A program made the translations under genes and the position numbers. From assembly GCF_002118315.1 (NCBI RefSeq), contig NZ_MTSZ01000003.1, positions 248,001 through 312,000 on the forward strand: a stretch of DNA of 64,000 nt. Direction: 5' to 3'. Positions 57,845-60,232 of the stretch are shown piece after piece. Position 1 is the first letter of the stretch, and every line of letters begins with the position of its first letter. The notes under the pieces are model-generated. The model did not search any database and had not been told where the DNA came from. It saw only the letters and a list, made by a program, of their open reading frames with translations. The stretch is from Kiloniella majae. GTDB lineage: Bacteria; Pseudomonadota; Alphaproteobacteria; Kiloniellales; Kiloniellaceae.

Positions 57845-57875
57845 AAAAAAAACCTCCAAGCACGAAGCTTGGAGG
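57845..57875 (-). terminator. Intrinsic terminator of the candidate small RNA
   Basis: On the minus strand CCTCCAAGC and GCTTGGAGG pair perfectly around a 5-nt loop (57875-57853) and eight T follow (57852-57845). Strand choice of the RNA rests on this U-run. Confidence 0.92.
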
Positions 57876-57975
57876 CAAGTTGAACAGGGAGGCTTCACGT
57901 CTGGGAGACGTGGGGTCCGAAGACCCCCAGGCCGAAGCCTGGAAACAGACCAACCGGAGCAAGCTCAACAGTTAG
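57845..57975 (-). ncRNA. Candidate small RNA: three stacked hairpins plus intrinsic terminator
   Basis: Read on the minus strand, the RNA has an apparent 7-bp closing stem (GTTGAGC at 57969-57963 with GTTCAAC at 57885-57879, one G-U). Inside are three hairpins with no spacer: CCAGGC/GCCTGG with a UUCG loop (57942-57927), GGGTC/GACCC with UUCG (57926-57913), and CACGTCT/AGACGTG with a CCC loop (57912-57896). An unpaired CCUCCC follows at 57894-57889. It ends in a perfect 9-bp terminator (57875-57853) and eight U. The 5' end and promoter are unclear. The anti-Shine-Dalgarno-like CCUCCC suggests a regulatory RNA. No Rfam family is recognised. Confidence 0.75.
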
Positions 57976-58124
57976 TCAAAGTAGATATTGCAAAGCAACA
58001 TCTGATGGAAATGAATGTAGCATTTTTTTTTAGGATGTCGATTTACATTATTACAGTGCCGATATGCATTGTGTGCATACCTACTAAGGCTTTGTAATAA
58101 AATCGTAATCTCAGATGTTTTGCC
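57976..58124. other. AT-rich spacer upstream of the small RNA and downstream of LysR
   Basis: No gene is seen. It must hold the small-RNA promoter unless the RNA is cut from the LysR transcript. A short dyad TATGCA/TGCATA lies near 58064-58080. No clear -35/-10 pair stands out by eye. Confidence 0.3.
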
Positions 58125-59060
58125 CTAGAATTTTGATTCTGCGACCTTGCGTAAGAGGAAATCCCGGAAAATGGCAATTCGCTTGGAAGATCTCATTTCC
58201 TCGGCATAGGCAAAATAGGCATCGAACTGAGGACCTTCAACCTCGGGTAAGACCTGTACCAGATCACTTGATTCCTGTGTCATGAAGTCAGGAAGCGCGC
58301 CCAGACCTGCGCCGGAGCGCACGGCCTTCATGATGGCGTAGATGTTATTGATCGCCATGGATGCGCGCCGCAGGCCAGTTCCTTCGGTGCCGACATGCAA
58401 GAGCCAGTTAATATCTGGAAGAGGTGGTTTTGTATCGTCCCCATAGACAACAAGCCTGTGATCCGAGATTTCATTTACAGTGCGCGGCATACCATATTTT
58501 TTAATGTAGCTGGCGGATGCGTAGATATGCATCTGGGCTGTAAGCAGGTGTCGTTGTATCAGATCTGCCTGTCTTGGTGGATGCAAGCGCACGGCGACAT
58601 CGGCTTCGCGCATGGAAAGATCCAGCTCTTTATCCGACAGGATAAGCTGTACTTCTACATCGGGATAAAGATCGATAAATTCATGTAGTCGCGGGGAAAG
58701 CCATGTTGAGCCAAAGGCAACGGTTGTTGTGATTTTAAGCGGACCTTTGGGGCGATCTTTACTCTCGGTTAGCTGTGCTTCTGTCATGGCGAGTTTGCCA
58801 AAGACATCATGAGCGGTTCTATAGAGAAGCTCGCCTTGTTCTGTCAGAATCAATCCGCGTGCATGACGATGGAAAAGCGAAACCTTGAGACTGTCTTCCA
58901 ACGCAGAGATTTGACGGCTGACTGCGGATTGGCTGAGGTTGAGTTGTTCCCCTGCATGAGTAAAGCTTCCGGCTTCGGCAACGGCGTGAAAAATACGCAG
59001 TTTATCCCAATCCATGATGGAGGCTTTCAGACCGCTCCGGCGTTTTGTGCCTTCTGACAA
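58125..59060 (-). CDS. LysR family transcriptional regulator
   Basis: The product has the LysR HTH (DWDKLRIFHAVAEAGSFTHAGEQLN, then SQSAVSRQISALEDSL) and an effector domain (PLKITTTVAFGSTWLSPRLHEF, AVRSGAGLGALPDF). I place the start at TTG 59060, with GGGAG 7 nt upstream, giving 311 residues; an ATG at 59015, without a good ribosome site, matches the usual N-terminus. It is upstream of the small-RNA locus and downstream of trxB on the same strand. The ligand and target are unknown. Confidence 0.9.
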   Translation of the reverse strand: MSEGTKRRSGLKASIMDWDKLRIFHAVAEAGSFTHAGEQLNLSQSAVSRQISALEDSLKVSLFHRHARGLILTEQGELLYRTAHDVFGKLAMTEAQLTESKDRPKGPLKITTTVAFGSTWLSPRLHEFIDLYPDVEVQLILSDKELDLSMREADVAVRLHPPRQADLIQRHLLTAQMHIYASASYIKKYGMPRTVNEISDHRLVVYGDDTKPPLPDINWLLHVGTEGTGLRRASMAINNIYAIMKAVRSGAGLGALPDFMTQESSDLVQVLPEVEGPQFDAYFAYAEEMRSSKRIAIFRDFLLRKVAESKF

Positions 59061-59287: not shown

Positions 59288-60232
59288 CTAGTCATTCATT
59301 TCAGTCAGGTAGCGTTCGGCTTCCAGTGCGGCCATGCAGCCCATACCTGCTGCTGTTACCGCCTGCCTGTAGATTTTGTCAACGCAGTCACCAGCTGCAA
59401 AAATGCCGGGAACATTGGTTGTTGCTGTGCCGGGTGTTGCCAGAATGTAATTTTCATCATCCAGATCCAGCTTATCCTTGAAGATTGCTGTCGCGGGATC
59501 GTGACCGATGGCCACAAACATACCGTTGACATCAAGTTCAGAGAACGAATCATTCTGAGTATCTTTCAGCTTCAGGCCGGTTACGCCATCTGTCGGTGTG
59601 CCCAAGACATCATCTACAACTTTGTTCCACTGAATATCGATCTTCTCGTTTTTCAATAGACGATCTTCGAGGATTTTTTCACAGCGCAGTGCGTCTCTTC
59701 TGTGGACCAAGGTTACTTTGGAACAGATGTTTGCGAGATAAAGAGCTTCTTCAACAGCGGTGTTCCCGCCACCGATAACCGCAACTTCTTTGCCACGATA
59801 GAAAAAACCGTCACAGGTCGCACAGGCAGAAACACCACGTCCGTTGTATGTCTCTTCCCCTTGCAAGCCCAACCAGCGTGCTTGGGCTCCTGTGGCAATG
59901 ATCACAGTGTCCGCAACATAGCTGTTGCCGCTGTCGCCTGTGCAGACAAAGGGGCGCTCGTCAAAATTGACTTCGTTGATGATATCAAAGTGCATTTTGG
60001 TGCCGACGTGTTCTGCCTGCTTTTGCATCTGTTCCATCAGCCATGGCCCTTGGATAACGTCTGCAAACCCGGGGTAGTTTTCGACCTCTGTGGTGATGGT
60101 CAACTGGCCACCGGGTTGGAGGCCCTGCACCAGAATCGGTTCAAGGTTCGCGCGCGCTGCATAGATGGCGGCGGTGTAGCCTGCGGGGCCAGAACCGATA
60201 ATCAGTACTTTGGTACGGTGGGTTTCGGACAT
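59288..60232 (-). CDS. trxB: Thioredoxin-disulfide reductase
   Basis: The 314-residue flavoenzyme has the FAD loop IIGSGPAGYTAAIYAARA near residue 11, the redox-active C137-A-T-C140 in SACATCDGFFYRGKEVAVIGGGNTA, which also shows the NADPH-binding glycines, and the C-terminal GIFAAGDCVDKIYRQAVTAAGMG. It keeps thioredoxin reduced for MsrB and peroxiredoxins. It probably has its own promoter, since the gap to the upstream leftward ELM1 gene holds a terminator. Confidence 0.97.
   Translation of the reverse strand: MSETHRTKVLIIGSGPAGYTAAIYAARANLEPILVQGLQPGGQLTITTEVENYPGFADVIQGPWLMEQMQKQAEHVGTKMHFDIINEVNFDERPFVCTGDSGNSYVADTVIIATGAQARWLGLQGEETYNGRGVSACATCDGFFYRGKEVAVIGGGNTAVEEALYLANICSKVTLVHRRDALRCEKILEDRLLKNEKIDIQWNKVVDDVLGTPTDGVTGLKLKDTQNDSFSELDVNGMFVAIGHDPATAIFKDKLDLDDENYILATPGTATTNVPGIFAAGDCVDKIYRQAVTAAGMGCMAALEAERYLTEMND

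Follow-up and report, generated by a model that had tools for sequence, protein, structure and literature searches.

A putative VtlR-activated anti-SD small RNA downstream of trxB-LysR in Kiloniella majae, most likely a positional and regulatory counterpart of AbcR1

Introduction

In the genome of Kiloniella majae (4.4 Mb), a run of hairpins ending in a terminator is located downstream of a LysR-type regulator gene. The question which this locus raises is whether the hairpins belong to a small RNA gene in its own right or only to the tail of the regulator mRNA and, in the former case, which of the known anti-SD RNAs is the nearest parallel. We addressed it by sequence comparison, starting from a 64,000-nucleotide stretch of contig NZ_MTSZ01000003.1 (referred to as the window). 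The initial annotation of this DNA had proposed either an independent trans-acting RNA or a LysR 3'-UTR product, and had recognised no known family.

AbcR1 has been described as an RNA activated by LsrB/VtlR, which represses transport mRNAs via two anti-SD motifs (PMC8844928, PMC5461406, PMC7486931). AbcR motif M1 is given as CUCCCA (PMC5461406), and more than one copy per genome has been reported for ar15/AbcR (PMC3712013). A literature search found no paper on the present RNA in Kiloniella or Rhodospirillales.

Results

Structure and extent of the predicted RNA

The three hairpins lie end to end on the minus strand, two of them with UUCG loops, and they are followed by a single-stranded CCUCCC (57892-57887, minus strand) and the RNA's own terminator (a stem of 10 bp at 57876-57852, then eight U, the last at 57845), all as initially annotated. 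The fold of positions 57990-57835 (minus strand) was matched in stability by none of 200 dinucleotide shuffles (z -5.32). The initial reading as a structured RNA that exposes an anti-SD segment is supported. The 3' end of the annotated extent (57845-57975) was retained. Its 5' limit was abandoned, because position 57975 falls inside a local hairpin (57977-57948), and beyond it there are a conserved 5' hairpin of 9 bp (58003-57983), kept in all nine Kiloniella copies, and then the promoter. The predicted full RNA (162 nt, 58006-57845, minus strand) has a fold of -70 kcal/mol (z -7.05), made up of six separate hairpins including the terminator, with the seed within 19 unpaired bases. The CUCCCA at 57907-57902, within hairpin C, is identical to AbcR motif M1 (Table 1).

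One structural proposal failed. A 7-bp stem (GUUGAGC/GUUCAAC) had been thought to close the hairpins into a multiway junction; its letters are complementary (six Watson-Crick pairs and one G-U), yet the stem is absent from both minimum-energy folds, and its 5' arm overlaps the local hairpin 57977-57948, which competes with it. The stem can be formed in all nine Kiloniella copies, but the changes are one-sided wobbles only, and across the class 7 of 117 copies contain a matching 7-mer, versus 10.8 in shuffles, i.e. without enrichment. The closing stem was rejected, and the multiway junction is not supported.

Table 1. Coordinates of genes, putative control elements and RNA features in the window
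Feature	Position	Strand	Basis or remark
trxB, thioredoxin reductase	59288..60232	-	TIGR01292, 416 bits, cut-off 343
LysR regulator	58125..59060	-	Pfam HTH_1 + LysR_substrate; VtlR/LsrB orthologue by place and identity
Putative VtlR/LsrB-type operator, ATGC-N7-GCAT (LysR T-N11-A form)	58064..58078	-	sole match in the window; about 1.3 expected by chance
-35-like TCGACA	58036..58041	-	consensus scan; invariant in 8 Kiloniella copies
-10-like TACATT, 16-nt spacer	58014..58019	-	consensus scan; Kiloniella copy comparison
Predicted sRNA, 162 nt	57845..58006	-	start inferred from -10 and box; fold z -7.05
5' hairpin, AGAUGUUGC-UUU-GCAAUAUCU	57983..58003	-	such a hairpin, at least 7 bp, in 78/135 copies
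Second hairpin, GACUAACUG..CGGUUGGUC	57948..57977	-	pairing in 9/9 Kiloniella copies; two pairs with double-sided changes
UUCG hairpin A, CCAGGC(UUCG)GCCUGG	57927..57942	-	fold; outer pair absent in 2/9 Kiloniella copies
UUCG hairpin B, GGGUC(UUCG)GACCC	57913..57926	-	fold; similar hairpin in many relatives, not all
Hairpin C, CACGUCU(CCC)AGACGUG	57896..57912	-	97.1% of cells paired, n=64; double-sided changes in 3/6 pairs
Single-stranded anti-SD seed, GCCUCCCUGUU	57883..57893	-	unpaired in fold; common to BLAST-found relatives
Intrinsic terminator and U tract	57845..57876	-	double-sided changes in 7/8 aligned pairs

Covariation and distribution

Covarying base pairs in homologues had been named as a test of the RNA, and the test was passed. 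We aligned 64 divergent copies, which were chosen by CTCCCAG and CCTCCCTG, so that those columns are fixed by construction, while no such choice was imposed on the terminator or on the outer stem of hairpin C. The structure of both elements was specified and its pairs were counted. Paired cells made up 89.3% (74.6 in shuffled alignments), and double-sided changes occurred in 10 of 14 pairs, with 129 such cells versus 50.2 after shuffling. For four measures the observed value was reached by none of 500 shuffles and for a fifth by one of 500; slid registers gave lower values. Hairpin C and the terminator covary; RNAalifold alone failed to recover hairpin C.

At E<=0.001 a covariance model (R2) matched 155 of the 289 genomes of the class, which represent 119 of the 223 genera sampled, weak matches included; at E<=1e-8 it matched 125 of the 289. 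Some of the matched genomes had supplied training sequences, and the E-values are rough. The best copies score near 90 bits. Of 200 genomes drawn from the whole phylum, 36 matched at E<=0.001; 12 of these lie outside the class and score at most 24.7 bits, and matches of 20-25 bits therefore mean little.

Genomic neighbourhood

The locus has the order trxB-LysR-RNA, all on the minus strand, and on the other side of the RNA there is a convergent MFS gene with its own terminator-like site. DNA matches to the RNA (E<=0.001) were found in 86 of 143 relatives, at 96 places, and synteny was counted in 80 regions containing 81 of these places. The LysR orthologue was located upstream, on the same strand, within 700 nt in 60 of the 81 matches and within 2.5 kb in four more; it was never found on the opposite strand. 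trxB was upstream in 57 of 81 and both genes together in 55. A core of 37 bases was found without mismatch in 73 stretches from named records, including Kiloniella, Pelagibius, Nisaea, Thalassobaculum and Rhodovibrio (many of the titles read Alphaproteobacteria only). LysR precedes the core in 48 of them, always on the same strand; the remaining 25 comprise nine with less than 1.2 kb of upstream sequence and 16 without LysR upstream.

When the search was started from the regulator, 168 of the 289 genomes of the class gave matches at E<=1e-60, most of them a single one. Among 60 further LysR regions, 34 contained the core string or a model match (E<=0.001), and no such RNA was detected by either means downstream of LysR in the other 26. 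The linkage is thus frequent, not universal.

The host genome contains one full model match (79.6 bits); the next reaches 33.4 bits and lacks hairpin C. The latter (G000:C22:394638-394702) is a second CCUCCCUGUU-GACUU-terminator module without the CUCCCA hairpin, and it follows an SDR gene which, by eye, resembles 3-hydroxybutyrate dehydrogenase. Another Kiloniella genome (G008) has two copies of the RNA. No match to the RNA was found in the plasmid collection. Three regions (L233 at 100-920, L198 and L230) carry tandem RNAs after LysR, whose 5' parts are unlike and whose 3' module is constant, several of them with their own box. On pTM3 of Tistrella mobilis, LysR is about 5 kb from the RNA and the box is nonetheless kept. 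Three other regions (L067, L068 and L102) encode RNAs with GUUCCUUGU(G/A)ACGCCUCCCUGUU and a terminator, and gave no LysR match within the fetched sequence.

Promoter region and regulator

The GCAT half of the putative operator starts at 58067, which is position -61 of the start at 58006; since this start was placed from the -10-like hexamer, the spacing is itself a prediction. Promoter hexamers recovered by consensus scan were no commoner than chance. The box was present upstream of the RNA in 96 of 121 relatives (shuffled mean 0.98, maximum 5; at most 7 for other spacers), the 121 copies sharing under 70% ungapped identity, with the reservation that indel-shifted near relatives may count twice. 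In its strict form it accompanies 71 of 81 LysR-linked copies (10 without) versus 11 of 22 unlinked ones (11 without). In the 66 copies for which box and 5' hairpin could both be located, 67-75 nt separate the box from the hairpin's apical C. The spacing between box and seed, by contrast, varies between 121 and 258 nt. Comparison of eight Kiloniella copies showed no change from the box through to the -35 element, whereas the stretch directly after the LysR stop does vary. Two unlinked short copies without the box (in a MAG and in Thalassobaculum litoreum) share another upstream string, TTGATACGCCATGAAATGATA, and are perhaps a sibling RNA under another promoter type, like AbcR2.

The same geometry was observed in rhizobia. 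GCAT precedes the ar15 start by 61 nt in Sinorhizobium meliloti (3537 and 3598) and likewise lies at -61 in Rhizobium leguminosarum (3431 and 3492). LsrB of S. meliloti is reported to bind at -61 to -49 of abcR1 (PMC8844928).

The regulator of the window is 49% identical to S. meliloti LsrB over 296 aa; no VtlR model was among the best 25 NCBIfam matches listed per protein. LsrB has been called unique to Rhizobiales, from a few representatives, and cysteine-based sensing has been proposed for it (PMC11975290). In contrast to rhizobial LsrB with its redox cysteines, the LysR protein of the window (58125-59060) contains no cysteine; it must therefore respond to a signal other than the oxidation switch put forward for LsrB. 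A cysteine occupies the three LsrB cysteine positions in 2, 4 and 0 of 108 aligned LysR segments, and 77 of the 108 have no cysteine at all (some genomes being counted twice). The trxB-vtlR order had already been called well conserved across the class (PMC7486931). The present data agree with that view and argue against thiol sensing as a general feature.

Relationship to AbcR1/ar15 and other anti-SD RNAs

No Rfam family reached its threshold in the window, in line with the earlier failure to recognise a family; what had gone unnamed is the nearest parallel, AbcR1/ar15, with which the RNA shares gene order, promoter box and CUCCCA. Like AbcR1/AbcR2 (alpha-r15, RF02345) of Rhizobiaceae and Brucellaceae, it is encoded downstream of trxB-vtlR/lsrB on the same strand. 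Further likenesses to AbcR1 are the LsrB/VtlR box with GCAT at -61 (by sequence, here on the predicted start), and the combination of CUCCCA (M1) in a hairpin, a second C-rich single-stranded segment and a terminator. In S. meliloti and R. leguminosarum, trxB and LysR are followed by two ar15/AbcR genes, and a Shinella record without annotation likewise shows a pair of ar15 copies after LysR. In these three the positive control, RF02345, found six copies at 97-127 bits (gathering score 40).

The same model gave no match at E<=10 to the RNA described here and none elsewhere in the host genome. It found no copy in 289 class genomes and none above the cut-off in 39 chosen genomes, where 15 weak matches (E<=1) were accompanied by matches in 8 of 14 named control genomes; these two surveys carry no weight in the comparison. 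Conversely, the model built from the Kiloniella-type RNA found none of the six ar15 copies at E up to 10. The architecture also differs: five hairpins precede the terminator here, two in ar15; GCCUCCCUGUU-N2-ACUU is found where ar15 has GUUCCCCUCUGGAGG; and M2 (GUUCCC / UUCCCCUC), located between the hairpins in ar15, is missing, its place being occupied by GCCUCCCUGUU. Unlike the multi-copy ar15 RNAs, there is one full copy in this genome.

The best sub-threshold Rfam matches were SorX (RF02784; 27.8 bits, gathering score 46.6) and SorY (RF02651), which in Rhodobacter share CCUCCCUGUU-N2-ACUU and a terminator with the present RNA. Two Paracoccus records contain RNAs above the SorX cut-off (52.6 and 49.3 bits) after a LysR relative of about 46% identity, and one of these two loci has the box. 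In a genome of family f30 the box occurs with a sub-threshold SorY-like RNA (62.1 of 111 bits). The alpha-R8 RNAs (MmgR/suhB, RF00519; Caulobacter SisA-D) likewise have a CCUCCCU seed, ACUU and a terminator. Their core is UUUCCUCCCU and their usual neighbour an FGase gene, in contrast to GAAGCCUCCCUGUU beside LysR, and RF00519 gave no match to the RNA at E up to 10. An MmgR/suhB-like RNA just below the Rfam cut-off (37.8 of 41 bits) was noticed elsewhere in the genome (G000:C1:1165945-1166006). C-rich anti-SD segments are also a feature of the CuckooRNA/CcsR RNAs, the type to which the initial annotation had likened the RNA. Anti-SD action has been reported for SisA (PMC12559287).

Candidate targets

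Patterns placed before ATG were searched in nine Kiloniella genomes, with 30 loci fetched per search and open frames of at least 200 aa (also at least 140 aa) considered. The pattern ACAGGGAGG gave 31 matches versus 7 for its reverse. The base-changed control ACBGGGAGG (three variants) gave 44 versus 23, and is not a fully clean control, since its ACG variant can still pair by wobble; the AAGGAG-type control ACAAGGAGA, at 45 versus 34, is thin. Uptake-transport genes accounted for 13 of 19, 11 of 15 and 0 of 4 frames of at least 200 aa (ACAGGGAGG, ACBGGGAGG and ACAAGGAGA, respectively), and for 13 of 20, 11 of 18 and 0 of 14 at the lower limit. Orthologues from different genomes enter these figures separately, and the assignments rest on Pfam for 10/19, 10/15 and 6/14 frames and on N-terminal likeness for the others. 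Seed-specific targeting through ACA before GGGAGG was considered and rejected, as it brought no gain in uptake genes over the base-changed control (13/19 versus 11/15). The data fit the uptake class without pointing to specificity beyond the ribosome site, because the ACA extension adds nothing; the same pattern would be expected if abundant binding proteins simply had strong ribosome sites. In front of one SBP_bac_1-type gene, five genomes have kept ACAGGGAGG and one more has a wobble form of it.

Discussion

Starting from the conservation of structure, gene order, promoter element and seed demonstrated by these sequence comparisons, we propose that the locus encodes, in a gene of about 162 nt, a small RNA that acts in trans and is the counterpart of AbcR1 in Kiloniella. 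The LysR protein encoded upstream (the VtlR/LsrB orthologue) would bind ATGC-N7-GCAT, the right half of which lies at about -61, and activate transcription from about 58006, with termination at 57845. Two C-rich segments may stay accessible in the row of hairpins, namely the CUCCCA of hairpin C and the GCCUCCCUGUU that precedes the terminator. By pairing, probably on Hfq, with GGGAGG-type ribosome sites, they would prevent mRNAs for solute uptake and related metabolism from being translated. We infer transcription, VtlR binding, the part of Hfq, the targets and the direction of regulation, and put the probability that this is a VtlR-activated anti-SD small RNA controlling uptake at roughly 0.8.

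The choice between an independent RNA and a 3'-UTR product turns on the promoter region. That the RNA is merely released from the 3' UTR of the LysR mRNA would suit its start 118 nt past the LysR stop, in the same orientation, with no terminator-like site between them in the scan, and the sub-threshold likeness to SorX, which is reported to derive from the 3' UTR of an OmpR-type mRNA (PMC6238624). This origin is nevertheless improbable. A LysR-type box at a near-fixed distance from the conserved 5' hairpin favours the independent RNA, as does the invariance of the box-to--35 block in Kiloniella when set against the changing sequence after the LysR stop, and second tandem copies have boxes of their own (L230 and L198), as has the Tistrella copy with its distant regulator. 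Still less credible, and in our estimation very unlikely, is a structure serving only as terminator or mRNA stabiliser of the LysR operon, with no activity in trans. The strong terminator and stacked hairpins would be expected of it, but not a single-stranded segment, dispensable for termination, that is conserved across families (among BLAST-selected matches), nor a conserved promoter box, nor unlinked and tandem copies.

A more serious contender, though on balance a doubtful one, is that the RNA does belong to the ar15/AbcR family by sequence and has merely drifted past the Rfam model. It occupies the same place, behind the same box at the same spacing, and has the same CUCCCA; against this stand the mutual blindness of the two models at E up to 10, the lack of any ar15 match in the genome, and the different second motif and 3' module (GUUCCCCUCUGGAGG versus GCCUCCCUGUU). 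Most likely, to judge from the sequences, the RNA is a positional and regulatory counterpart of AbcR1 and not a member of Rfam ar15. The first part follows from the gene order and from the promoter box, at -61 as in S. meliloti and R. leguminosarum and kept in most relatives. Since M1 is present without M2 and neither model sees the other RNA, we would describe it as probably working like AbcR1 and sitting in its place, without filing it as ar15. If the proposal is true, nutrient uptake is under AbcR-type control not only in the rhizobia, Agrobacterium and Brucella in which this has been studied but, with a different RNA sequence, in much of the class. Rfam would then gain a missing family (119 of 223 sampled genera, weak matches included), and regulator and RNA would form a pair that has retained promoter and seed while the body of the RNA was remade.

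Part of a class-wide picture is already in print, and the Paracoccus SorX-type and f30 SorY-like loci suggest one class-wide locus. Tentatively, and with somewhat less than even confidence, we regard a VtlR-activated anti-SD small RNA beside trxB-vtlR as an ancestral circuit of Alphaproteobacteria. AbcR1 (Rhizobiales), SorX/SorY-like RNAs (Rhodobacterales) and the present RNA (Kiloniellales, Rhodospirillales and others) might then be descendants or replacements at one locus, held by a box better conserved than the RNA body, with the thiol redox sensing of LsrB added only in Rhizobiales.

The names of some records deserve attention. Two MAGs titled Polycyclovorans and Mesoflavibacter contain the exact alphaproteobacterial core, and these names look wrong. 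CP090106.1, a 3.7-Mb S. meliloti record named pSymB, has trxB-lsrB-abcR, a locus described as chromosomal, and is probably mislabelled.
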